Positions 1 through 16,488 of a DNA stretch of 51,661 nt are shown piece after piece (within the stretch, counting starts at the first letter, position 1; every line of letters starts with the position of its first letter). The notes beneath the pieces were generated by a model. The model did no database searches. It was not told where the DNA came from and saw nothing but the letters and a program-made list of their open reading frames with translations. The stretch spans positions 1-51,661 of the forward strand of contig JAHCJK010000019.1 in the NCBI GenBank assembly GCA_026184295.1. The letters are read 5' to 3'. The position numbers and the translations under genes were made by a program. This stretch comes from Planctomycetota bacterium (GTDB lineage Bacteria > Planctomycetota > SZUA-567 > H5-PLA8).

Positions 1-365
1 ACAGCCTCCTCAAGAGCCAGCAGGTGGTCCGCGCGATTCCCATCGCCGGCGCGATCGCCTCGTACGCCGTCGATCTGGTCAACGCCTCGCGCCCCGACGA
101 CGCCAAAGCCCCCGATTTCGTGAAGCAGTACGTCTCCGTGGGCGCGTCGCTGCGCGGCTCGCAGTACCTGGTGCTCGGCGCGCGGGCGCGCGCGGCCATG
201 GCCGGGCGCCTGGCGGTCTCGGTCGAAGACATCCGCTCCGTGGCCTACAGCGTCCTGCGCCACCGCATCGTGGTGAACTTCAAGGCCGACGCCGCGAAGG
301 TGAATTCGGACGAGATCGTGAAGCGCTTGATCGAGAAGGTGCCGGCCCCGAAGGCGAAGATGTAG
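1..365 (+). CDS. MoxR-family AAA+ ATPase, C-terminal part (5' end outside window)
   Basis: The frame is open from the first codons of the window, so this is the last ~120 residues of a longer gene; the AAA+ core with Walker motifs lies upstream. The visible part matches the C-terminal lid of MoxR ATPases: a helix with VNASRPDD, the VSVGASLRGSQYLVLGARARAAMAGR segment (conserved as GASPRA...AArA.A.l.GR in the family) and a final VLRHRIVVNF strand. MoxR ATPases are thought to act as chaperones that remodel membrane or metal-dependent complexes together with VWA proteins. The next genes are DUF58 and BatA-type VWA proteins, the usual partners. The C-terminal tail is basic and Pro/Ala-rich. The family is clear; the substrate is unknown. 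Confidence 0.85.
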   Translation, partial: SLLKSQQVVRAIPIAGAIASYAVDLVNASRPDDAKAPDFVKQYVSVGASLRGSQYLVLGARARAAMAGRLAVSVEDIRSVAYSVLRHRIVVNFKADAAKVNSDEIVKRLIEKVPAPKAKM

Positions 366-374
366 GCGTGTATT

Positions 375-461
375 CACCGCAGAGATCGCAGAGGACGCTG
401 AGCACAGCTTCTTATTGTAAAGGTCGTGCCGTGCTCTGCGTGCTCGGCGATCTCCGCGGTT
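375..461. repeat. Imperfect long inverted repeat (ACCGCAGAG-type intergenic element)
   Basis: The arms at 375-405 and 431-461 are 31 nt each and match at 26 of 31 positions when one is reverse-complemented, with a 25-nt AT-richer centre (406-430). The left arm begins CACCGCAGAGATCGC and the right arm ends GATCTCCGCGGTT. It fills almost the whole gap between the MoxR and DUF58 genes, and its 3' arm ends 16 nt before the DUF58 start. From memory, related ACCGCAGAGACGCAGAG-like sequences occur between genes in many bacteria, so a dispersed repeat is more likely than a gene-specific operator. There is no U-tract, so it is not a classical terminator, but the RNA would fold into a long hairpin inside the operon. 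Confidence 0.75.
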
Positions 462-477
462 GGAAAAGGTAAACTGC

Positions 478-1380
478 ATGGCGAAGCAGCCCGAGAAACC
501 CGACGTCCTCGACACCGCCACCCTGGCGCGGATGAGCAACCTCCAGTTGCTCGCGAAGACGGTCGTGGAAGGCTTCATCCTCGGGCTGCACAAGTCGCCC
601 TTCCGCGGGTTCAGCGTCGAGTTTGCCGAGTACCGGCCGTACGTGCCGGGCGACGACATCAAGCACATCGACTGGAAGGTCTACGCGAAGTCGGACAAGC
701 ACTACCTGAAGCTCTTCGAAGAAGAGACGAACCTGGCCTCGCACGTGATTCTCGACGCGAGCGGTTCGATGGCGTACGGCTCGGGGGAGATCACCAAGTT
801 CCAGTACGCGGCGCGGATGGCCGCGTGCCTGGCGTACTTCATGATGGGCCAGCGCGACGCGACGGGGCTGGTGGTCTTCGACACCGAGATCCGCGAAATC
901 CTGCCGCCGCGCCTGCGCCCCACGCACCTCCAGCACATCATCAACGTCGTCCAGTCGTGCGAACCCGGCGGCGAGACCGACCTGGCGCAGCCGCTGCACG
1001 CCGCGGCCGAATCGATCAAGAAGCGCGGCCTGGTCGTCGTCATCAGCGACCTGCTGGGCGAGATCGACGCGCTGAAAGGCGCGCTCCAGCATCTCAAGTT
1101 CGGCGGCCACGACGTCATCGTCTTCCAGGTGCTCGACCCGCACGAACTGGAATTCCCCTTCGACAACCTGGTCGAATTCACCGATCTCGAGACGGGCCAG
1201 CGGCTGCGCACCAGCGGGCGCGCGGCGCGCGAGGAGTACCTCAAGGAATTCAACGCGCACCAGGAGGCCGTCCGCGAGACCTGCGGCGACCTGAAGATCG
1301 ACCACGTAGTCTACGACACGCGCCAGCCGCTCGACATGGCGCTCGCCGAATACCTTTACCGCCGCGGGAGGGCCGGATGA
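478..1380 (+). CDS. DUF58 domain protein with VWA-like fold
   Basis: This 300-aa soluble protein has the DUF58 signature around residues 51-72 (EYRPYVPGDDIKHIDWKVYA). A VWA/MIDAS-like metal site follows: D93-x-S95-x-S97, T157 in GGETDL and D181 in VISDLL. DUF58 proteins are constant partners of MoxR ATPases and BatA-type VWA proteins, and may present substrates to the ATPase. The ATG at 478 is chosen because AAAAGG (464-469) lies 8 nt upstream; an in-frame TTG at 460 would bury that site. The stop overlaps the next start in an ATGA, which suggests translational coupling to the BatA-type protein. The residues expected for metal binding are intact. Confidence 0.93.
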   Translation: MAKQPEKPDVLDTATLARMSNLQLLAKTVVEGFILGLHKSPFRGFSVEFAEYRPYVPGDDIKHIDWKVYAKSDKHYLKLFEEETNLASHVILDASGSMAYGSGEITKFQYAARMAACLAYFMMGQRDATGLVVFDTEIREILPPRLRPTHLQHIINVVQSCEPGGETDLAQPLHAAAESIKKRGLVVVISDLLGEIDALKGALQHLKFGGHDVIVFQVLDPHELEFPFDNLVEFTDLETGQRLRTSGRAAREEYLKEFNAHQEAVRETCGDLKIDHVVYDTRQPLDMALAEYLYRRGRAG

Positions 1381-3398
1381 ACTGGCTGAACCCGGGTCTC
1401 GTCTGGTTCGCCGTGCTGGCCGCCGTGCCGGTGCTGCTGCACTTCCTGCTGCGCGAACGCGTGCAGAAGGTCGCCTTCGGCGCGATGCGCTTCCTGCGCA
1501 AGCAGACCAACCAGCTCCTGACGCGCAAGCGCTGGCTCGAATGGCTGCTCACCGCCATGCGCGCGCTGGCCGTACTGATCCTCGCGTTCGCTTTCGCGCG
1601 GCCGTTCTTCGCCGACCCGCAGGCCCAGGCGGCTTCGGGCACGCGGCCCGCGACGGTGGTCGTGCTGGACGTCTCGCGCTCGATGTCCTTCGGATCGCGC
1701 TTCAAGGACGCCCAGGCGAAGGCGGAGGAAGCGGTCAAGTCCGCCGGCCCCGGGCGGCTCTTCCGCGTCGTCACCTTTTCCGACACCGGGCGCATGCAGG
1801 TGAACGACGTGGACAGCGCGGGCGAGGCGCTCGGCCTGATCGGCAAGCTCGCGCCGACGCCCTACGCCACCGACCTGCTGGAAGGCCTCGACCGCGTCTT
1901 TGCCGGGCTGGCCAGCCAGTCCGCGGGCGGCGACGTGTACCTTATCAGCGACCTGCCCGCCGCGGCGCTCGCGGCCAACCGCGAGATTCGCCCGCTGCCC
2001 AAGGGCTTCCGCCTGCATGTCGAAGCCGTGGGCGGCGGCGAAAAGGCCGACGGCGCCGTCGTGACCGGCGGTTCGAACACGCTCGAGACCCACGCCGAGG
2101 AACGCAACGTCCAGTTGGCCGTGCGCGTCGCCAACTACGGGCCTGCCCGGGACGCGACGGTGAAACTGATCGTCAAAGACCAGGCCCTCGACATGCGCAA
2201 GGCCGCGCTCCCCGCCGACGGCGAGGCCGCCCTGACGCTGACCGGAACGCTGAACCAGGTGGGCGAATACCCCGGCGAAGTGAAACTGGAAGGCGTGAAG
2301 CCCGTGCTGAACGGCGACGACACCTTCCATTTCGTGCTTCGGGTGGTCCAGAACATCCGCGTCGCGGTGCTGAACGGCGCGCCGAGCGCCGACTCGACGC
2401 GCGACGCGGCCTACTACGCCGTCGAGGCGCTGAACGCGGGCGAGAACAGCCCCTATCGCGCCAAGGCCTACGACCGCCTGCCCGATCTGCGCGAGACCGA
2501 CGTCGTGGTGCTCTCCGGCGCGCACAAGCTCGACGCGGCCGACGTAAAGCGCCTGGACGCGTTCGTCAAGGAAGGCGGCGGGCTGCTGGTCGCGGTCGCG
2601 CCGGAGTCTTCGCCGGAGGCGTTCAACGCGAGCATCGGGGAGGTCGCGCCGGCGCGCCTGCGCCTGCTCAAGGACCCGAATGCTTCGATTTTCCTCGTGG
2701 CCTCGGACCTCAAGCACCCCTGGGTGCGCGGCGTCACCGGCAACAACCGCGGCGACCTGACCGGCGTGCACGTCCGCGGCGCGTGGGAACTTAAGGATTC
2801 GCAGGAGGCCAGCGTGATCCTGCGCTTCGACGACGGGCGTCCGGCGCTGATCGAGAAGCCGCGCGGCAAGGGCGCGACCCTGATGTTCGCGGCCTGCCTG
2901 GACCGCCGCGCGGGCGACTTTCCGCTGCGCGCGATCTACGTGCCGTTCGTCCGCGAATGCCTGCACCTGCTCTCTCAGCGCGCGGGCGCGTCGGGTTCGC
3001 TGGGCCTGGGCGACGCGGTGGCCGTGAACGCCGGCGCGGCGCTTACCAGCCCCGCCGGCAAGGAAGTGGCCGCGAAGGGCGAGCCCGTCGAGGTGACGCT
3101 CGACGAGTCCGGCATCTACCGCCTCCAGGACGGCGCCCACACGATGCTCTACGCAGTCAACGGCGCGCCGTCGGAAGCCGATCTCACGTCGGTCTCGGCC
3201 GAGGACGTGGAACGGCGCTTCAGCCCCGCGGCGGAAGGAAGCATCCGCCAGACCGAACACGGTTACGAGCGCGTGCTCGCGCCCGAGGAACGCCTGAAGA
3301 ACGAACAACGCGGCAACATCGGCTGGTGGCTGCTCGCCGCCATCCTGCCGCTGACGATCGCGGAGCTGCTGCTGGCTCGCTATGTAGGCAAGACGTAA
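1377..3398 (+). CDS. BatA-type VWA membrane protein
   Basis: This 673-aa protein begins with the BatA N-terminal domain: MNWLNPGLVWF, a membrane segment at about 8-24, a basic loop with MRFLRKQ, and a second segment at about 56-75. A VWA domain follows with a good MIDAS motif D98-V-S100-R-S102 (VVLDVSRSMSFG). The middle is a beta-rich extracytoplasmic-type region, then a GATase-like fold near 330-500 (VAVLNGAP and later FVKEGGGLLVAVAPE). A last membrane helix lies near 648-668. It overlaps the DUF58 gene by 4 nt. Bat proteins were first linked to aerotolerance in Bacteroides; in this kind of genome the role is unknown, and cell-envelope quality control is one possibility. The family call is firm. 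Confidence 0.9.
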   Translation: MNWLNPGLVWFAVLAAVPVLLHFLLRERVQKVAFGAMRFLRKQTNQLLTRKRWLEWLLTAMRALAVLILAFAFARPFFADPQAQAASGTRPATVVVLDVSRSMSFGSRFKDAQAKAEEAVKSAGPGRLFRVVTFSDTGRMQVNDVDSAGEALGLIGKLAPTPYATDLLEGLDRVFAGLASQSAGGDVYLISDLPAAALAANREIRPLPKGFRLHVEAVGGGEKADGAVVTGGSNTLETHAEERNVQLAVRVANYGPARDATVKLIVKDQALDMRKAALPADGEAALTLTGTLNQVGEYPGEVKLEGVKPVLNGDDTFHFVLRVVQNIRVAVLNGAPSADSTRDAAYYAVEALNAGENSPYRAKAYDRLPDLRETDVVVLSGAHKLDAADVKRLDAFVKEGGGLLVAVAPESSPEAFNASIGEVAPARLRLLKDPNASIFLVASDLKHPWVRGVTGNNRGDLTGVHVRGAWELKDSQEASVILRFDDGRPALIEKPRGKGATLMFAACLDRRAGDFPLRAIYVPFVRECLHLLSQRAGASGSLGLGDAVAVNAGAALTSPAGKEVAAKGEPVEVTLDESGIYRLQDGAHTMLYAVNGAPSEADLTSVSAEDVERRFSPAAEGSIRQTEHGYERVLAPEERLKNEQRGNIGWWLLAAILPLTIAELLLARYVGKT

Positions 3399-3405
3399 CC
3401 GCTGG

Positions 3406-3561
3406 GGTCAGGGATAAAAGGTCAGGGCACAGGGAACGGAAACGGCGGCGAAGCAGGGATACACGGGAACCATATAAAGGAGGCGGGAAGGGTCGGCGAT
3501 CGAGGTGCGGCGAACAGTGCGTGCGTTCCCCGGACTCGATCCCTCTGCCCTGAACCCTGAT
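3406..3561. repeat. TCAGGG-type short repeats with inverted arms
   Basis: The 163-bp gap between the BatA-type and DUF4175-like genes starts with two copies of GGTCAGGG (3406-3413 and 3420-3427). It ends with CCCTGAACCCTGA just before the next start codon. The segment 3422-3435 (TCAGGGCACAGGGA) pairs with 3540-3553 at 13 of 14 positions, about 100 nt apart. The right arm ends directly at the start of the next gene, so folding could mask its ribosome site. AAAGGAGG near 3476-3483 is a strong Shine-Dalgarno-like sequence but lies 80 nt from the chosen start. The pattern resembles dispersed intergenic repeats rather than a promoter. I see no other gene here. Confidence 0.55.
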
Positions 3562-5334
3562 ATGAGCGAACTGCAGGAGAAACTCGAACACGTGCGGGCC
3601 GCGTGGCGGCGCACCGAACTGCTCAAGGGCCTGAGCGTGCTCGTGGCCGACGCGGTGATCGTGGTGCTGGCGCTGGTCGCGCTGGACGCGCTGTATCATC
3701 TGCCGCCTCCGGTGCGCGGAGGCCTGCTGGCCGCGGGCGCGGTCGTGCTGGTGACGGCGGCGTTCGTGCTCTGCATGCGCCCGCTGAAGAAGCAGCACAG
3801 CCGCGAGGAGATCGCGCTGCATGTCGAAGGCCGCTTCCCGCAGTTGCAGGGCACGCTGCTGGCCGCCGTGGACTACGAAGAGCGCGAGAACGAGTCCGAG
3901 ATCGAAGCCGACCTGGTGGACGCGCTGCTGCTCGAGTGCCTGGACAAGGCCGCCGAGATCGACCTCGCGCAGGCGATCGACCGCAAGCGCCTGGCCTGGC
4001 GCGCGGGCGCCTGCGCGCTGCTGCTCGCGTTCTTCCTCGGCGCGGTGGCCGTGCAGCCGGGCTTCTTCAAGCGCGAACTGCAGCGCGTGCTCGCGCCGTG
4101 GAACGACCCGCCGCCCACGCAGGAGGAACTCGCCGCCGAGCAGCGCCGCAAGGACCAGCAGGAGCAGCTCGCGGAATACCTGCGCCAGGCGAGCAACCGC
4201 GAGGCCGAGCCGCTCAAGTTCGAAGTGACGCCGGGCGACGTGGAAGTCGAACGCGGCGGGCGCTTCGAGGCCGGCGTGAAACTCAGCCGCGCCGCCGGCG
4301 CGCCGGTGCTGATGTTCTCGAAGAGCGACGGGGGCTGGGGCAGCCTGCCGATGAACGAGGACCCCGCGCGCCCGCAGCATTACTTCCAGACGCTGGCCGA
4401 CGTGACCGAGGACCTGGCGTACTACGTCGCGGTGGGCGAGGAGAAGTCCGAGAAGTACCACGCGAAGGTCTTCGACCCCGGCGTGCTGAAGGAACTGCGC
4501 CTGACCTACCGCTATCCCGAGTACACCAAGCTCCCGCCCGCGACCGTGACGGGCTTCGACGGCGCCATCGACGCCTACGAGGGCACGCAGGTGGACGTGG
4601 CCGTGGTCGCGTCCAGCCGGCTCGCGAAGGGCACGCTGCATCTGAGCGGCGGGACGGACGTGCCGATGGCGGCCAACGGCAACGAGGCTTCCGCGACGCT
4701 GACGCTTTCCAAGCCCGGCGACTACGGGATCGAAGCCTACGACGTCCACGGCAAGAAGATTCCCGTGGAGCGGCGCTTCTCGATCCGCGTGCGCGCCGAC
4801 GAACCGCCCGAGATGGACCTGCTGCACCCGGCCATCGACCTGATGGTGCATCCGATGGAAGAGGTCGTCTTTGCCGCCGAAGTGAAGGACGACGTGGGCC
4901 TGAAGGAGGTGCGCCTGCACTTCACCTACGGCGTGATGAACGAAGAGGTGCTGAAGCTGCCCTGCAACGGCGAGAAGCGCAAGGTCGCCGATTTCGTGCT
5001 CGACCTGGAAAAGCGCGCCAACGTCCAGCCCGGCGACTCGATCACCTTCCATCTCGAAGCCGAAGACCTGAAGGGCCAGAAGGCGTACACGGACGTCTAC
5101 CAGATCACCATCCGGCTGTGGGAATCCTGGAGCTTCTACGCGGGCGGGCACCACCCCGGCGAACCGCATCCGCCCGGCGACCCCGAACTGATCTCCGTGA
5201 TGGGCGCGCTGTGGGACCTGCACACCAAGAAGGGCCAGATGACGAAGGAAGACTTCGAAAAGGAGATGCGCCGGCTCTCGAAGAACCTGGAGCACACCGG
5301 GAAGCCGGGCATGGGCCAGCCGTACAAGCCGTAG
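3562..5334 (+). CDS. DUF4175-like membrane protein with large extracytoplasmic region
   Basis: This 590-aa protein has an amphipathic N-terminus (MSELQEKLEHVRAAWRR), membrane helices near 24-44, 52-72 and 148-166, and a charged coiled stretch (TQEELAAEQRRKDQQEQLAEYLRQ, about residues 190-215). The rest, about 370 residues, is beta-rich and probably extracytoplasmic, with Ig-like segments such as LRLTYRYPEYTKLPP and VEDDVGLKEVRLHF-like strands. This layout resembles the N-terminal half of DUF4175 proteins found next to MoxR/DUF58/VWA genes. The ATG at 3562 is preferred over an in-frame upstream codon at 3505 because the upstream residues are encoded by the repeat and do not look like protein. 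There is no clear Shine-Dalgarno, so the start is less certain than the product. Confidence 0.8.
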   Translation: MSELQEKLEHVRAAWRRTELLKGLSVLVADAVIVVLALVALDALYHLPPPVRGGLLAAGAVVLVTAAFVLCMRPLKKQHSREEIALHVEGRFPQLQGTLLAAVDYEERENESEIEADLVDALLLECLDKAAEIDLAQAIDRKRLAWRAGACALLLAFFLGAVAVQPGFFKRELQRVLAPWNDPPPTQEELAAEQRRKDQQEQLAEYLRQASNREAEPLKFEVTPGDVEVERGGRFEAGVKLSRAAGAPVLMFSKSDGGWGSLPMNEDPARPQHYFQTLADVTEDLAYYVAVGEEKSEKYHAKVFDPGVLKELRLTYRYPEYTKLPPATVTGFDGAIDAYEGTQVDVAVVASSRLAKGTLHLSGGTDVPMAANGNEASATLTLSKPGDYGIEAYDVHGKKIPVERRFSIRVRADEPPEMDLLHPAIDLMVHPMEEVVFAAEVKDDVGLKEVRLHFTYGVMNEEVLKLPCNGEKRKVADFVLDLEKRANVQPGDSITFHLEAEDLKGQKAYTDVYQITIRLWESWSFYAGGHHPGEPHPPGDPELISVMGALWDLHTKKGQMTKEDFEKEMRRLSKNLEHTGKPGMGQPYKP

Positions 5335-7715: not shown

Positions 7716-9998
7716 GTGTTTCAGTGGCTGTTTAAATATCCGCTGCAATCCTACCGCGAAGGCGATCTGGGCCTGACCTGGAACCTTCGTCCGGAACTGC
7801 TGCTGCTCGCGCTGGCGCTGGCCGCCTTTGGCGCGTGGTGGCTGTACCGCCGCGAAGCCCGCGCGCCGCAGGGCTGGCGGCGCTGGGCGCTGCCGGCCTT
7901 GCGCGTGGCGGGCACGGCCCTGGTGGCGCTGGCGCTGCTCGGGCCGGTGCTGCGCTTCAGCAAGCGCGACGAACAGAAGGCGATCTTTGCCGTCGCCGTG
8001 GACGCCAGCACGAGCATGAACGTGAAGGACGGCGCGAGCGGCAAGACCCGTTTCGAACGTGCGCGCGCGGCGCTGGGCTCCGAAGGCAAGCTGGCCGAAG
8101 CCCTGGCCGAGTTCGGCGAGGTGCGGTTTTTCACGGTCGGCAGCCAGTGCCGCCCGGTGACGCCCGAACAGATGGCCGCGCTGCAGCCCGCCGACGACCA
8201 GAGCGCCCTCGCGCAGGGCTTGAAGGAACTCTCGCAGATGCTGCGCGGCCTGCCCGTCGAAGGCGTGGTGCTGCTGACCGACGGCATCGAGACCACCGGG
8301 GCCGACCCGGCGGGGCTGGCGCGGCTGGTCGCATCGCGCGGCGGGCACGTGCACTGCATCGGTTTCGGCGAAGCCAAGGGCCTTCCGGACCTGCAGATCG
8401 TGGACGTGCGCGCGCCCCGCAGCGCCGAACGCGGTTCGCTGGTGACGATGAACGTGCAGGTGCGCCGCAGCAACATCCAGGAACCCGTGCGCGTGCGGCT
8501 GTACCAGGACACCGAACTGCTGAAGGAAGAAGAGGTGCTCTTCGAACCCGGCGCAAACCTGGCCGACGCGCGCATCTCCTTCGTCGCCGAAGCCGAAGGC
8601 GCGGTGAAGTACAAGGTCGAACTCCCCGCCGCGCGGGACGAACAGATTCTCGACAACAACGAACGCATCGTGCAGGTGGACGTCAAGGAGACGCGCGTCG
8701 AGGTGCTGCTGGTGGAAGGTTCGCCGCGCCACGAGTACGCCTTCATCCGCCGCGCGATGGCCGACAACAAGCACTTCAAGGTCGTCACGCTTCTGCGCCT
8801 GGGCAAAGGCAACTACTACAAGCGCGCCGACGACGACAGCTTCCTCAGCGAAGGCTTTCCCGACACGGCCGAACGCCTGGGGCGCTTCAAGGCCGTGATC
8901 CTCAGCGACATCGAGGCCGGGTACTTTACCTCCGAGCAGCTCCGGCTGATCGTGGACTTCGTGAAGGTCCGCGGCGGCGGCCTGCTGATGCTCGGCGGCG
9001 TGAACGCCTTCAACCTCGGCGGCTACCAGAACACGCCGCTCGCCGACCTGCTGCCGGTCTCGCTGGCGCCCGGCGGCGTGGGCGAAGCCTTCGACGATTC
9101 GAAGTTCCAGATGCAGGTGACGCGCGAAGGCGCCGAAGACGAAATCCTGCGGCTGAGCGGCAACTCGGACGAGAACATCGCCCAGTGGAACCTCATGCCG
9201 CCGCTGAAGGGCTACAACCCGCTGTACGCGGCCAAGCCCGGCGCGGCGGTGCTGGCGCGGCATCCGCAGCCGGGCCCCGACGGCCGCCAGGCGGTGCTGC
9301 TGGCGGTGCAGGAAGTGGGCGCGGGGCGCACGGGCGTCTTCGCGGCGGCGAATTCGTGGCGCTGGCAGATGCTGCGGCCCGCGAACGACGATACGTTCAG
9401 GCGCTTCTGGTCGCAGACGATCCGCTGGCTGGCCGCGGGCAGCAAGGAGATGCTGAGCGTCGGCACCGACACGCGCGTCGCCGGCGTGGGCCAGAACGTG
9501 ACCATCACCGCGACGGTGCTCGACCGCCGCCACCGCCCCTGCAACGAAGCCAAGGTGCTCGCGCGGGTCAAGGACGGCTTCGGCAACGTGGACGAGGTCC
9601 GCCTCGCGTGGATTCTTCGGGAGGAAGGCGTCTACCAGGCCACCTTCCGGCCCACGCACGCGGGCGATTACAGCATCGGCGTCGAAGCGCAGGTGGAAAG
9701 CAACACGCTCGAAGCGCTGACCTCCCTCGCCGCCATCGAGACCTCTCCGGAACTCAACCGCATCGACATGGACGCCGCCCTGCTCACCCGCATCGCCAAC
9801 GAAGGCAAGGGCGTCGCCGATCTGGAAGGCAAGACCGACGCGGTGATCGCGTTCGTCCGCGAACACGCGGTGAAGCGCAGCCGCATGCTCGACCTCGTCG
9901 AAGAGAAGGAACTCCGCGACGCCCCCATCCTGCTGCTGCTGATCTGCGGGATCTGGTTCGCGGAATGGATCGTGCGAAGAAGGAGCGGCATGGCATGA
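7716..9998 (+). CDS. VWA membrane protein with GATase-like domain
   Basis: This 760-aa protein has two N-terminal membrane helices (about 27-44 and 58-77) and then a VWA domain with MIDAS motif D96-A-S98-T-S100 and a later LLTDGIETTG. A beta-sandwich region follows (VRVRLYQDTELLKEEEV). The glutamine-amidotransferase-like fold starts at VEVLLVEGSPRHEYAFIRRAM (about 330) and continues through VRGGGLLMLGGVNAFNLGGY (about 415-435), but no catalytic Cys-His-Glu set is evident. A C-terminal Ig-like segment and a last membrane helix near 738-753 complete it. The start is a GTG preceded by CGAGGGA. It is the second VWA protein of the operon and overlaps the DUF4159 gene by 4 nt (ATGA). The family is clear; the ligand is unknown. 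Confidence 0.9.
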   Translation: MFQWLFKYPLQSYREGDLGLTWNLRPELLLLALALAAFGAWWLYRREARAPQGWRRWALPALRVAGTALVALALLGPVLRFSKRDEQKAIFAVAVDASTSMNVKDGASGKTRFERARAALGSEGKLAEALAEFGEVRFFTVGSQCRPVTPEQMAALQPADDQSALAQGLKELSQMLRGLPVEGVVLLTDGIETTGADPAGLARLVASRGGHVHCIGFGEAKGLPDLQIVDVRAPRSAERGSLVTMNVQVRRSNIQEPVRVRLYQDTELLKEEEVLFEPGANLADARISFVAEAEGAVKYKVELPAARDEQILDNNERIVQVDVKETRVEVLLVEGSPRHEYAFIRRAMADNKHFKVVTLLRLGKGNYYKRADDDSFLSEGFPDTAERLGRFKAVILSDIEAGYFTSEQLRLIVDFVKVRGGGLLMLGGVNAFNLGGYQNTPLADLLPVSLAPGGVGEAFDDSKFQMQVTREGAEDEILRLSGNSDENIAQWNLMPPLKGYNPLYAAKPGAAVLARHPQPGPDGRQAVLLAVQEVGAGRTGVFAAANSWRWQMLRPANDDTFRRFWSQTIRWLAAGSKEMLSVGTDTRVAGVGQNVTITATVLDRRHRPCNEAKVLARVKDGFGNVDEVRLAWILREEGVYQATFRPTHAGDYSIGVEAQVESNTLEALTSLAAIETSPELNRIDMDAALLTRIANEGKGVADLEGKTDAVIAFVREHAVKRSRMLDLVEEKELRDAPILLLLICGIWFAEWIVRRRSGMA

Positions 9999-10859: not shown

Positions 10860-11885
10860 ATGCGAAAACTGGGCTTGGTGCTGGCGGTGCTTGGCGTGCT
10901 CGGGTGCGGGCGAGCCTTTGCGGGCGATGCGCGGGCGCTGATCGTCAGCGGCGACCCGGGGCTCGAACCGGACGCGGCCACGCGCTTCGCCGACTGGACC
11001 GCGCGCTGGAAGAAGCTGCTCACCGAGACCTACGGCTTCAAGGCGGAAAACGTGCGCGTGCTGCGCGCCCCGGCCCTCAAGATCGACGGAAAGCCCGCGG
11101 AGGACGTGCCGGAGGCCGACCTTTGTTCGCACGAGAACGTCCTCAAGGCGCTGGGGGCGCTGGCGCAGGCCGGCCAAGACGGCGACCAGACGGTGCTGAT
11201 CCTGATCGGGCACGGGTACGGATCGCAGGGCCTCGGGAAGATCTGCCTGCCCGGGAAGGATCTGGACGACGTCGAGGCCGCCAAAGCGCTGAAGGGCCTG
11301 AAAGGCCGCCTGGTCTGCCTCAACACCGCGCCGGCCAGTTCGCCGTGGGCGAAGTCGCTTGCCGGGCCCGGTCGCGTGACGCTGACCGCCACCGTCAGCG
11401 ACACCATGGCCAGCGTGACGTACTACAGCGAGTTCCTGCTCCTGGCGCTCGAACCGGGCCGGGTGAACCTGCTCGACGCCTTCAACGCCTCGTCCGCGCG
11501 CATGATCCGCTGGTACCAGAACCAGTTCATGGAAGAAGCGACCAAGAAGAAGGCCGACCAGTCGAAGCTGATCATGACCGTCAACGGCAAGGAAAATCTG
11601 GCGCTCTGGAAGAAGCTCTACCCCAGCAAGCCCGTGTTGGCCGGCACCGACGACCCGATCGAGTCCAGCAACAATTTCGAAGCCAAGGAAGCGTGGCAGG
11701 GGCGCCGCGTGCTCTCCGAACTGCCCGGCCTGGAAGACAATGGCGACGGCGAGGTCGCCAGCGTATTCTCGGACAGCGAACTGGAAGAGGAAGGCCGCGC
11801 CATCCACTCGCTGCCCGCCAAGGACCAGGACGGCGTGAAAGGCGACGGCCATCTCGCGAAAACCACCGTGCTGGGAAAACCATGA
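10860..11885 (+). CDS. Caspase-like (clan CD) protein, probably without catalytic cysteine
   Basis: This 341-aa exported protein has an N-terminal hydrophobic signal (LGLVLAVLGVLGCGRAFA). It could be a type I signal or a weak lipobox at LGC. The mature part resembles caspase/C13-like proteins: an early strand RALIVSGD, the His motif ILIGHGYG, then LPGKDL, and the strand LVCLNTAPASS at the point where active members have the Cys of a D-x-C-x-S/G motif. Here that position reads N-T-A-P, with the only nearby Cys two residues earlier inside the strand. A later LEDNGDGE segment is typical of this family. It is therefore a probable pseudopeptidase. ATG 10860 is preferred (GAGG 9 nt upstream); ATG 10851 and GTG 10824 are also in frame. 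It sits directly before the giant secreted protein. Confidence 0.72.
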   Translation: MRKLGLVLAVLGVLGCGRAFAGDARALIVSGDPGLEPDAATRFADWTARWKKLLTETYGFKAENVRVLRAPALKIDGKPAEDVPEADLCSHENVLKALGALAQAGQDGDQTVLILIGHGYGSQGLGKICLPGKDLDDVEAAKALKGLKGRLVCLNTAPASSPWAKSLAGPGRVTLTATVSDTMASVTYYSEFLLLALEPGRVNLLDAFNASSARMIRWYQNQFMEEATKKKADQSKLIMTVNGKENLALWKKLYPSKPVLAGTDDPIESSNNFEAKEAWQGRRVLSELPGLEDNGDGEVASVFSDSELEEEGRAIHSLPAKDQDGVKGDGHLAKTTVLGKP

Positions 11886-11886
11886 C

Positions 11887-14800
11887 ATGCCCTCCTTCAA
11901 ACGCCGGACGCTTTCCCCGCGCCTGATCCTCCGCGGGGCGCTCGCCTTCGCCGCGTGCGCCGCGGCCCTGCGCGCCGGGGAAGAACCGCCCGCCGCGCCC
12001 CAGCCCAAAACCCCGCCGATCGCAGGCTTCGCCTGGACCAAGGTGTCGGGAATGGCCGACGTGGAACGCGTCTTTCCTTCGGAGGCCGACCCGGCGACCG
12101 CGTACGTCTCGACCGCGCACGGGCTTTTCGTCAGCCACGACCGCGGTGTCGCTTTTAAGGCGCTACCCGCCGAGGCCGCCAAGCCTCTGGGCGTGATCAC
12201 GGCCTTGCTCGAAAGCCCCGTGCGCCGCGGACAGCTTTACGCCGGCACGCGCGAAAAGGGCGTCTTCGCCAGCGAGGACGGCGGCGCGACCTGGCGCGGG
12301 CTGGGCGGCGTGGACAAGGGCCTCGCGCATCCGCACATCCACAAGCTGATCTTCGACGACTACGACCCGAGCTTCACCACGCTGTACGCGCTGCATTCGA
12401 TGGACCACGGCGGGGTGAGCGTGAGCGTGGACGGCGGCGCGACCTGGCGCGCCTTCGCCAGGGAGTACGGCGTGCAGGACCTCGCGGTCTTCCAGAGCAC
12501 CTTCTTCATGGCCGCCTCGCACCCGCCGGGGCAGGGCGAAGACGGCCTGTACCGCGGCGCGGACTTTTACCGCTCGCTGGACGCGGGCAAGAACTGGTTC
12601 CGCCTGCTGAACGTCGAGGCGCGGCCTTCCGACCTCGTCGGCAGCCGCCTGAACACGCGCACCGTCTGGTTCGGCACCGCCGGCGGGCGCCTGCTGGTGA
12701 CCTACGACTTCGGCACCTCTTCTTCGGAAGCCGGTCCCGAGAACGGGATGAACACCGCCTCGCTCGCGCGCGGGCTGGGGCCCTCGGGCGAGGAACGCAT
12801 CTTCGCGTACGATCCCACCGGCGAAGGCGTCGTCTACTCCTCCGACCATTTCGATTCCTGGCAGAAGCTCAACGAGGGGCTGTACGTCGGCGACCTGGTG
12901 GCCGACGGCGCGATGATGGCCGCCAACGCGGACGGCTCCGTGCTGTACGTCGTCAAGAACGGCGAACTCAACCGCGGCGCGCCCAAGGACCCGCGGGCGC
13001 TCGGCGCCGAGACCCGCGCGGAACCGCGCGCGGTCTTCGCGGGCGATGGCGAAGTGCTCTTCACCTGCCGCACGGCCGCGGGCGCGGACGTGAAGATGGA
13101 CCTGACGGGCGTCGCGGGTCCGGCCGACTTCGCCTTAAAGGACGACGGCCAGAGCGGCGACGGGGCCGCGGGCGACGGCGTGTACGCCGGGCGCTTTCAG
13201 GTTCCGGACAAGGCGCTGCGCCCGCCGCCGGAATTCAAGGGTCCGCGTCTGCCGGGGCTGGCGGCGCTGCCCGTGCGCATTCAAAAAGATGGCGCGTCCG
13301 AGGCCTCCCTGGCGGTCGTGTACGTCCTCCAGAAGTCCGAAGACCAGCCGCTCTGGAACGGCGAGACCCCCGGCGGCGGCGCGGCCTGGGCCGCGGGCGG
13401 CGTGGCGGCGGGCGCTTCGTCCGAACGGCCGCTCACCGGCGCCTCGCACCTGCGGGTCTCGGTCAACGCGCTGGGGCAGGCGGGCTTCAGTTGGAAGAAC
13501 GCGCCCGTGGACGCGCGCGGCTCCAAGTACCTCGCCTTTTTCGTGCGCTCGAACAAACCCGGCGCGACCTCCCTGCGCCTGGAACTGCGCGACGACGGGC
13601 GCGGCTACGGGCTGGAACACGCGGGGCGCTCGAACCTCGTGGACCTCGGCCGGTACCTCCGCGAACCGCTGAGCGACCGCTACCAGTACGTCGCGATCCC
13701 GCTCGCCGATTTCATCCTCGGCGGGGCCGCGGTGCCGCAGCGCCTGCGCGAGATCGTCTTCGATTCGCCCGGCGAGGACCGCGTGTACGACTTCGACGAG
13801 TTCGCGTTCACGCCCGCCAACGGCGCGCGCTTGGGGCCCGTTTCCGCCGAGGTCAAGCCGGACGGCTCCGGCCTGCGGCTCACGCTGCGTGCGATCAACG
13901 CTTCGGCGGCCGTGAAGGCGCGCGTAACCGCCGGCGGCAAGACCGTGGACCTCTTCGACGACGGCAAGCACGGCGACGAGGCCGCGGGCGACGGGCTCTT
14001 CGCGGCCGACGCGCCGCTGAACGCCTTCGGCGCGGGCGTAAAGGACCTGGCCTTCGAGATGGACGAACAGGGTCAGGCCGCGCGCGCGAATGTGACCGCG
14101 TTCCTGCCGCGCCGCGCGCCGGGCCTGTTGCCCGTCGTCCCCGCGAACCTGAAGCTGGACGGCAGCGCCGCCGCCTTCGAGGGCATCCCGCCCTTCGAGG
14201 TGAAGCAGGGCGCGCTGGAACTGAAGGCCTGCCTGGCCAAAGGCCCCGGGCACCTCTTCGTCGGCCTGGCGGTGAAGGACCCCGGCTTCGCGCCGCCGGA
14301 TTCGAAGAAGAAGCGTCCTTCGCCGGAGACGCTCCTGGAAGGCGCGCACGTCGAACTGCGGCTCACGTCCCCGACCACCGCGTTGGCGGAGATGCGTTCG
14401 GCGGCGGGCCCCGCGGACCACAAGCTCGTCTTCGCGCTGACCGACCGCAACGCCTTTGTCCTGCGCAACGGGAAGCAGATGGTCCAGACCGGCGGGAAAA
14501 AAGTGGACGGCGGATACTGGATCGAGGCGCAGGTGCCGCTGGACTGGTTCCACGCGGGCAACAAGCGCTGCGACTTCGACCTCGGCAAGGCCACGCGCAT
14601 CGACTGGGTCCTGCGCGGCTCCGACGGCAAGACTGCCGCGTGGTCCGGCGCGCCGAGCGAGAACCCCGACGCCTGGGGCCTGGCGTTCTTCGTCAACGAA
14701 CCCGGCGCGCCGCGGCTGGCCTTCGTGAGCTGCGCGGGGCCGCTGGCCACGTTCTCAAGCAACAAGCCGCTCGACCCGGCGACAGCCAAACCCGCCGCCT

Positions 14801-16488
14801 TCGATGCCGGCGCGGTGAAGATCGCCGGCGCGGAGCTTTCGCCCGACGGCCGCGTGCTCTACCTCAAGGCCGCCGACTGGCCGATGGGCCAGGCCTTGAC
14901 GCTCAAGGCGCCGGGCCTGAAGGCCGCGGACGGTTCGGGCGGGACGGCCGACGTGAGCTTTACCGCCGTCCCGGGCCGCGCGGTCACCGGCGATCTGCTG
15001 CAGGAATTCCTCCTCGGCCCCGTGCGCGAAGGCGTCGATCCGAACTCGGTGCTGAACGAGGACCCGCCCGGCACCGCCGATCTGAAACCCAGCGAAGGCC
15101 GCGGCTGGCGCACGGTCCGCGCGGAGAACGGCCTCTTCGACCTCGGCGCGCTCGCCGGGAACCTCGGCAACGTGACCGTCTGCGCGCACGTGTACGTCTA
15201 CTCCGACGCGGACCGCACGGCGCAGGTGTGGGTCGGAAGCGACGATGGCATCAAGGTGCACGTCAACGGCGCGGCGGTGCATACGAATTCGGCCATGCGC
15301 GGCGTCGCGCCGGACAGCGACAAGATTCCGAACGTGAAGTTCGTGAAGGGCTGGAACCGCGTGCTGCTGACCATCGCGCAGGGCGGCGGCGGCTGGGGCT
15401 TTTGCGCGCGCATCGTGGACGAAGCCGGCAAGCCGCCGAAGGGCCTGAGTTACACCGCGGCGAGCCCCTTCGGCCCGCAGGACGATCCCAAGCTGCCCAA
15501 GGCCGATCCCCCGGCGGCGCCCAAGGGCCAGAAGGTGGAAGCCGCCTGCACGGCCGGCGTGACGGTGGAGAAGGTCGAATTCCGCGGCTGGAAGGACGCG
15601 TGGAAGCTGAGCAACGAATCGTGCGAAGCGATCGTGGTGCCCGAGGTCGCGCGCATCCTGCATTTCGCGATGAAGGAGAAGCCGAGCGTGCTCTGGATCA
15701 ACGGCGACTTGGCCGGCAAGACCGCCAAGTCCGACAATCAGTGGTACAACTTCGGCGGCGACAAGATCTGGCCCGCGCAGCAATCCGAATGGGGCTGGCC
15801 CCCGGTCTACCATTTCGATTGCGCGCCCAACAAGGCCGAGGCCGTGCCCGGCGGCGTGAAGCTGAGCACGCCGACGAGCCCGAAGTTCGGCGCGGAGGCC
15901 GTGCGCGAGATCGTCCTCGACGAAAAGAAGCCGCTCCTGCGCATCCGCCAGACGATGACGCGCAGCGGCGATTCGGCCAAGGATCTGACGCTCTGGTCGG
16001 TGACGCAGGTGATCAAACCATCCTTCGCGCTGCTGCCGCTGGGCCAGCCGTTCGATAAGGACCGCCACAAGCCGCTGGGCGAACTGAAGCCGAACCTCTT
16101 CCGTGTTCACAAGACGGTGCTTTCGATCGAGAACGACGACGACGCGGGCCAGAAAGTGGGCGTGCGCTCCGACGAGGCCGCCCGCGAAGGCTGGGTCGCC
16201 GGCATCTTTCCCGGGCAGATGCTGGTGATTTCGCACGCGATCGAGAAAGACGGGCGCTACCCCGACGGCGGCTGCCACGGGGAAATCTTCACCGCGCCGA
16301 AGTCGCTGGGGAGCAATGTCGAACTGGAGTTGCTGAGCCCGCTGACGGCGCTCAAGAAGGGCGAGTCCTTCAAGCACGACCTGATCTGGCAGCTCGTGCC
16401 CATCGACGCCAACCAGCAGGACGAACCCGAACGCGCCGCCGCCGCCGCGCGCAAGGCCCACGAAGAAGCGCTCGCGATTCTAAAATAA
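11887..16488 (+). CDS. Giant modular secreted protein: beta-propeller, CBM-like modules, DUF4380-like end
   Basis: This 1533-aa protein starts 1 nt after the caspase-like gene and has a signal peptide (LRGALAFAACAAALRAG). Residues 50-345 are a YCF48/BNR-type propeller with repeats such as GVFASEDGGATWRGL, GVSVSVDGGATWRAF and FYRSLDAGKNWFRL. Two DDGxxGDxAAGDGxF/Y modules follow near 417 and 688. Between them is a galactose-binding-like beta-sandwich (YLAFFVRSNKPGATSLRLEL). A CBM9/DOMON-like module lies at about 755-935 (WIEAQVPLDWF), then an Ig-like domain, then a PA14-like lobe (VWVGSDDGIKVHVNG, about 1115). Residues 1230-1510 resemble DUF4380, a mutarotase-like fold. It may recognise or sense surface carbohydrate. 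The function is inferred only; the large size and the position at the end of a VWA operon are notable. Confidence 0.78.
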   Translation: MPSFKRRTLSPRLILRGALAFAACAAALRAGEEPPAAPQPKTPPIAGFAWTKVSGMADVERVFPSEADPATAYVSTAHGLFVSHDRGVAFKALPAEAAKPLGVITALLESPVRRGQLYAGTREKGVFASEDGGATWRGLGGVDKGLAHPHIHKLIFDDYDPSFTTLYALHSMDHGGVSVSVDGGATWRAFAREYGVQDLAVFQSTFFMAASHPPGQGEDGLYRGADFYRSLDAGKNWFRLLNVEARPSDLVGSRLNTRTVWFGTAGGRLLVTYDFGTSSSEAGPENGMNTASLARGLGPSGEERIFAYDPTGEGVVYSSDHFDSWQKLNEGLYVGDLVADGAMMAANADGSVLYVVKNGELNRGAPKDPRALGAETRAEPRAVFAGDGEVLFTCRTAAGADVKMDLTGVAGPADFALKDDGQSGDGAAGDGVYAGRFQVPDKALRPPPEFKGPRLPGLAALPVRIQKDGASEASLAVVYVLQKSEDQPLWNGETPGGGAAWAAGGVAAGASSERPLTGASHLRVSVNALGQAGFSWKNAPVDARGSKYLAFFVRSNKPGATSLRLELRDDGRGYGLEHAGRSNLVDLGRYLREPLSDRYQYVAIPLADFILGGAAVPQRLREIVFDSPGEDRVYDFDEFAFTPANGARLGPVSAEVKPDGSGLRLTLRAINASAAVKARVTAGGKTVDLFDDGKHGDEAAGDGLFAADAPLNAFGAGVKDLAFEMDEQGQAARANVTAFLPRRAPGLLPVVPANLKLDGSAAAFEGIPPFEVKQGALELKACLAKGPGHLFVGLAVKDPGFAPPDSKKKRPSPETLLEGAHVELRLTSPTTALAEMRSAAGPADHKLVFALTDRNAFVLRNGKQMVQTGGKKVDGGYWIEAQVPLDWFHAGNKRCDFDLGKATRIDWVLRGSDGKTAAWSGAPSENPDAWGLAFFVNEPGAPRLAFVSCAGPLATFSSNKPLDPATAKPAAFDAGAVKIAGAELSPDGRVLYLKAADWPMGQALTLKAPGLKAADGSGGTADVSFTAVPGRAVTGDLLQEFLLGPVREGVDPNSVLNEDPPGTADLKPSEGRGWRTVRAENGLFDLGALAGNLGNVTVCAHVYVYSDADRTAQVWVGSDDGIKVHVNGAAVHTNSAMRGVAPDSDKIPNVKFVKGWNRVLLTIAQGGGGWGFCARIVDEAGKPPKGLSYTAASPFGPQDDPKLPKADPPAAPKGQKVEAACTAGVTVEKVEFRGWKDAWKLSNESCEAIVVPEVARILHFAMKEKPSVLWINGDLAGKTAKSDNQWYNFGGDKIWPAQQSEWGWPPVYHFDCAPNKAEAVPGGVKLSTPTSPKFGAEAVREIVLDEKKPLLRIRQTMTRSGDSAKDLTLWSVTQVIKPSFALLPLGQPFDKDRHKPLGELKPNLFRVHKTVLSIENDDDAGQKVGVRSDEAAREGWVAGIFPGQMLVISHAIEKDGRYPDGGCHGEIFTAPKSLGSNVELELLSPLTALKKGESFKHDLIWQLVPIDANQQDEPERAAAAARKAHEEALAILK

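Follow-up and report, generated by a model that had tools for sequence, protein, structure and literature searches.

A predicted exported clan CD pseudo-peptidase from a family linked to a membrane VWA protein, in a planctomycete MoxR/VWA operon

The window analysed here, a stretch of 51,661 nucleotides from a bacterium of the Planctomycetota, contains, within a run of genes for MoxR- and VWA-type proteins, an open reading frame for which a first-pass annotation had proposed a caspase-like fold with its histidine motif and without its catalytic cysteine. The question raised by this locus is whether the product is indeed a peptidase relative deprived of its nucleophile and, if so, which role is left for it in such an operon. 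The reading frame and the two strings on which the proposal was built, ILIGHG and LVCLNTAPASS, are present as quoted (Table 1). Homologues with the same motifs were found in the same genus (70% identity), the same family (55%) and the same phylum (33-40%), so that a chance origin of these motifs can be discarded. Moreover, the gene shows a dN/dS of approximately 0.28 (NG86) and differs far more at codon position 3 than at positions 1 and 2, indicating that it is under purifying selection. As judged from these comparisons, it is a real gene. Its product is predicted to be exported by means of a Sec-type signal sequence, with a possible lipobox; the same-genus orthologue carries a canonical one (LAAGC).

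Table 1. Genes and sites of the operon, with their positions in the window.
Feature	Position	Strand	Evidence or remark
MoxR-type AAA+ ATPase, C-terminal lid, cut by the window edge	3..362	+	Pfam AAA_lid_2, E 5.9e-18
DUF58 protein	460..1380	+	Pfam DUF58, E 4.5e-54
BatA-like membrane protein, VWA-type, ~672 aa, start approximate	1380..3398	+	N-terminal membrane segments, DVSRSMS motif
DUF4175 membrane protein	3505..5334	+	Pfam DUF4175, E 3.7e-7; three hydrophobic segments
Putative exported Gln/Ala-rich coiled-coil-like protein, 759 aa	5380..7659	+	N-terminal hydrophobic segment; kept in G001
VWA/GATase1-like membrane protein, 760 aa, constant neighbour	7716..9998	+	Pfam GATase1_like, E 2.9e-13; VWA_2 below cut-off
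DUF4159 protein with signal sequence, overlaps the VWA stop codon	9995..10759	+	Pfam DUF4159, E 2.1e-37
Predicted exported clan CD pseudo-peptidase, 341 aa (this study)	10860..11885	+	Orthologues 70% (G001) and 55% (G002); fold model
Predicted N-terminal signal sequence, residues 1-22 (MRKLGLVLAVLGVLGCGRAFAG); lipobox-like VLGC at 13-16	10860..10925	+	Hydropathy and lipobox pattern
His118 codon (GHG of ILIGHG), at the position of the catalytic His; best-conserved column in the family	11211..11213	+	
Cys153 codon, within strand 150-155, unconserved, not the nucleophile position	11316..11318	+	
Pro158 codon, catalytic Cys position	11331..11333	+	Profile alignment to metacaspase-4 C139; Cys in paralogues
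Acidic motif EDNGDG, residues 292-297, conserved	11733..11750	+	TEHxLLDDNGDG in relatives, here SELPGLEDNGDG
Sortilin/BNR-repeat and DUF4380/mutarotase-like protein, 1533 aa, same operon	11887..16488	+	

No match to the protein was obtained in Pfam up to E 1, nor in NCBIfam or PADLOC; this includes Peptidase_C13 (PF01650), which was equally unmatched across its own genome, and the C14 model PF00656, and a phmmer search against PDB sequences returned 0 matches. The AlphaFold2 model, built on an alignment of 48 relatives, reached a pLDDT of 90.4 and a pTM of 0.90, and the best Foldseek matches in the PDB all belong to clan CD, headed by GPI transamidase subunit K (E 1.8e-8, probability 1.00) and including yeast and plant metacaspases, legumains/asparaginyl endopeptidases, MALT1 and caspases. 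TM-scores against these matches are moderate (~0.3-0.56), and the protein is thus a distant member of the fold. An alpha/beta fold of the legumain/metacaspase type is therefore predicted with confidence from the model, in agreement with the caspase-like fold put forward in the first-pass annotation.

Within this fold, H118-G119 aligns with the GHG of metacaspases and lies, like the His-Gly motif of C13 peptidases, after the central strand. The position of the nucleophile was fixed by two alignments. The family profile places CA[S]ASG over DS[C]HSG of Arabidopsis metacaspase-4 (6w8s, C139), and the same column over DS[A]HSG, that is, A139 of its C139A mutant (6w8r); in the gapless alignment with paralogues, this column reads SA[C]CSD, SA[C]GSD, GM[C]ASD and GM[C]GSD. 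In the protein encoded in the window it is occupied by Pro158, within NTA[P]ASS, so that the A/S-C-x-S-G motif of C13 peptidases is broken at its cysteine, while Ser160 at +2 is kept. The first-pass annotation was thus right about the absence of the nucleophilic cysteine and mistaken about the residue that replaces it, since alanine or threonine is ruled out by both registers. Likewise, the only cysteine that it had noticed nearby, given as two residues earlier, is C153, which lies five residues before the nucleophile position, and C129 (KICLPG, 11 residues past His118) is also close. Cys153 is replaced by V, I, F or L in relatives and, on alignment register and poor conservation, was rejected as a nucleophile; the alternative that the cysteine of VCL could serve in this way is, on the sequence evidence, not borne out. 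A serine or threonine nucleophile, also contemplated earlier, cannot apply to a protein with proline at that position. The earlier annotation thus misplaced the nucleophile by one to two residues, and on this register its conclusion stands: cysteine has been exchanged for proline in this protein and in its two closest relatives, and the fold and the histidine have been kept under purifying selection, which supports the reading as a pseudoenzyme.

The protein belongs to a family of PVC bacteria with several hundred members, not covered by a dedicated Pfam or NCBIfam model, for which no describing paper was found among the open-licence literature. When 392 genomes of the phylum were searched with a profile, about 50 clear members were obtained, and at least 441 encoding stretches were found in the GTDB species genomes; the best 80 of these at least 441 belong by title to Planctomycetota and Verrucomicrobiota, except for one Proteobacteria and one entry named only "bacterium". 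In a sample of 129 members, from which the distant C13-like protein L059 was excluded, the histidine is kept in 128, and the nucleophile column contains Ser (105), Ala (10), Pro (8), Cys (4) or Gly (2). The named loci were sampled by peptide patterns including GHGT[FY]D or DDNGDG, so that their histidine count is partly built in; in the sample drawn by profile, the histidine is present in 49 of 50. When columns were ranked by information content, His118 came first and the nucleophile column 59th, with D134, D293, E287, R172 and Ser160 near the top.

In a tree built with the motif columns left out, the nucleophile residue changed at least 12 times, and both proline and alanine arose several times. 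The four cysteine forms make up one clade inside the branch of the window, and a long stem leads to the proline clade. As the outgroup consists of one long branch that groups with a further long row, cysteine in the four-member clade may be either ancestral or regained. The natural series of Cys, Ser, Ala, Gly and Pro at one site offers a test bed for what becomes of a protease fold after cutting stops. In the alignment, the distant member L024 (G059:C198) also has proline at the nucleophile column, and it has lost the histidine as well (GQA for GHG).

Both ends of this series coexist in two relatives, G001 (same genus) and G002 (same family). Each encodes one cysteine form (L015, G001:C115; L013, G002:C1) and one proline form (L063, G001:C12; L003, G002:C738) at separate loci, each with a VWA/GATase1-like gene, which makes a direct comparison of the two copies possible. 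L015 keeps both His and Cys and matches Peptidase_C13 with 28.4 bits against a Pfam cut-off of 22.8. No DUF4159 match was found between the VWA gene and the family gene at the cysteine-type loci L015 and L013. In the genome of the window (94% complete) no cysteine copy was found, the protein described here being the only family member detected there. The proline-type gene of G002 (L003, 1486-2205, together with L012) undergoes a frame change after ~240 aa, its C-terminal part lying in another frame; this could reflect decay or an assembly error.

The genomic context of the family is highly constant. The family gene is immediately preceded, on the same strand, by the VWA/GATase1-like gene in 106 of the 114 loci with enough sequence and in 74 of the 76 named ones; some distant non-members are among the 114, and one locus is counted twice. 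The two genes mostly lie within about 100 bases of each other or overlap. The VWA/GATase1-like protein, in which membrane segments near both ends flank VWA and GATase1-like domains, is commoner than the family itself (314 of 392 genomes), and the nearest relatives of the one encoded in the window are those encoded beside family genes. In the window, genes for MoxR, DUF58 and VWA membrane proteins are found in one operon, all on the + strand, in a Bat-like arrangement. To our knowledge, no clan CD protein occurs in Bat or NorQ/NorD systems. In Planctomycetota and Verrucomicrobiota, several hundred predicted exported caspase-fold proteins thus form a family linked to a single VWA membrane protein, and a widespread, unexplained MoxR/VWA operon gains a further defined part. 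For DUF4159, no describing paper was found among the open-licence literature. Downstream of the family gene, the 1533-aa protein, whose C-terminal region is mutarotase-like (DUF4380/TTE1925) and which also contains Sortilin/BNR repeats and a choice-of-anchor X domain, is conserved in G001, G002, G004, G006, G027 and others. A second VWA/GATase1-like paralogue, 30% identical, is present in the genome of the window (G000:C218:1981-4293).

The combination of a caspase fold, a broken dyad and a MoxR/VWA context has precedents from which the family can be told apart. It resembles C13 peptidases (legumain, GPI8/PIG-K; PF01650) in the fold, the GHG histidine and the strand ending before the nucleophile loop, as well as through the same-genus paralogue that scores above the Pfam cut-off, but the protein described here carries proline for the catalytic cysteine, lacks a Pfam match and is encoded separately, with a predicted signal sequence, within a MoxR/VWA operon. 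From C14 peptidases and orthocaspases it differs by the lack of a PF00656 match and of the cysteine of the His-Cys dyad. Pseudo-orthocaspases, which occur mainly in Cyanobacteria and Alphaproteobacteria, are also caspase-fold proteins with a broken dyad, mostly replaced by Tyr-Ser, with Tyr-Asn also found in Cyanobacteria (PMC6426788). In the present family, by contrast, the histidine is kept, cysteine gives way to Ser, Ala, Pro or Gly, and the proteins are predicted to be exported and belong to PVC bacteria; neither the Tyr-Ser nor the Tyr-Asn pair is seen in the protein of the window. In a 2012 survey, the dyad was conserved in only 64% of planctomycete caspase homologues (PMC3501461).

A parallel in context is given by the MoxR-vWA ternary (VMAP) conflict systems, in which a MoxR-vWA system also includes a caspase-like component; about 70% of the caspase domains in effector position are reported to be inactive, and inactive domains fused to vWA have been interpreted as peptide-binding or dominant-negative components (PMC7159879). 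However, the caspase is there one of many variable effectors and is fused to the vWA component, whereas the protein described here is encoded by a separate ORF with its own predicted signal sequence, has no PADLOC match, is constantly found beside a membrane VWA/GATase1-like protein, and shares its operon with DUF58, DUF4175 and sometimes DUF4159. Pseudo-caspases beside MoxR-vWA pairs are therefore already known, and the family is distinguished by being separate, predicted to be exported, endowed with the histidine and constantly next to a VWA/GATase1 gene. Bat (aerotolerance) operons and NorQ/NorD-type pairs likewise combine MoxR ATPases with VWA proteins, with a role of NorQ/NorD in cofactor insertion (PMC3557215, PMC9976466).

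Since the family gene almost always directly follows the membrane VWA gene, its product is probably a binding subunit and not an enzyme. Our preferred reading, to which we assign a probability of roughly 0.7, is that the protein is exported and, as a pseudo-peptidase, works as a binding subunit of an envelope VWA system, and not as a protease. It would be made from one operon with the membrane-anchored VWA/GATase1-like protein, whose soluble domains it would meet, most likely outside the cytoplasmic membrane, as its signal sequence and the membrane segments near both ends of the VWA protein make possible. There, as a subunit of an envelope complex, it would bind a peptide or another ligand without proteolysis, and the MoxR ATPase and the DUF58, BatA-like and DUF4175 proteins would assemble or remodel this complex. 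Proline at the nucleophile position excludes catalysis through that position, and the retention of the histidine and of the fold suggests that the former active-site groove still binds something. A scaffold or ligand-binding role, as also envisaged in the first-pass annotation, would be read from the operon context. The histidine is almost never lost, and some chemistry or metal binding may still take place at the site. Moreover, with cysteine in four members and serine in most, inactivity need not hold for the entire family.

This abundance of serine is at the core of a different reading, in which the serine-bearing majority would be active clan CD hydrolases that use serine as nucleophile in a Ser-His dyad, the proline form of the window being a secondary loss within an enzymatic family. 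It is favoured by the presence of the histidine in all 105 serine forms and by their distribution across both Planctomycetota and Verrucomicrobiota. Nevertheless, serine has changed to alanine or proline in several lineages with the histidine and the operon position unaltered, which would not be expected of an essential nucleophile, and the open-licence papers searched yielded no serine enzyme of clan CD; we regard this reading as unlikely. It is also quite improbable that the family represents a PVC branch of clan CD which switched its nucleophile from cysteine to serine, yielding exported hydrolases or transferases of the serine type that are coupled to the VWA/MoxR machine, with the Pro, Ala and Gly forms as derived non-catalytic subunits. 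If true, these would be the first clan CD enzymes known to us to use a serine nucleophile.

Two further alternatives concern the protein of the window itself. An unconventional site, possibly metal-dependent, could be formed by His118 with Cys129 or with the acidic motif (E287, D293, D134). His118, D134, E287 and D293 are indeed among the most conserved columns, and Cys129 is common to the clade of the window, including cysteine- and serine-type paralogues. However, position 129 is mostly Asn outside this clade and the second conserved histidine of the family, in the region of the acidic motif, is Leu288 here, which makes such a site very unlikely. Finally, the protein could be a paralogue, in decay and without present function, of an active C13 peptidase, as might be thought from the long stem branch of the proline clade, from the split copy of G002, and from the sister species, which holds an intact His-Cys copy and a proline copy, each in its own operon. 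The low dN/dS, the intact full-length ORFs in two species, the retained histidine and operon order, and the fact that no other family copy was found in the genome of the window all argue against decay, which we consider highly improbable.

Most members also carry an EF-hand-like loop (ADLDKDGQxSLLEA, as in L036 and L028), which in the clade of the window reads EPGRVNLLDA (residues 196-208); a possible calcium site would thus have been lost in this clade together with the nucleophile and the second histidine (H288 to Leu).
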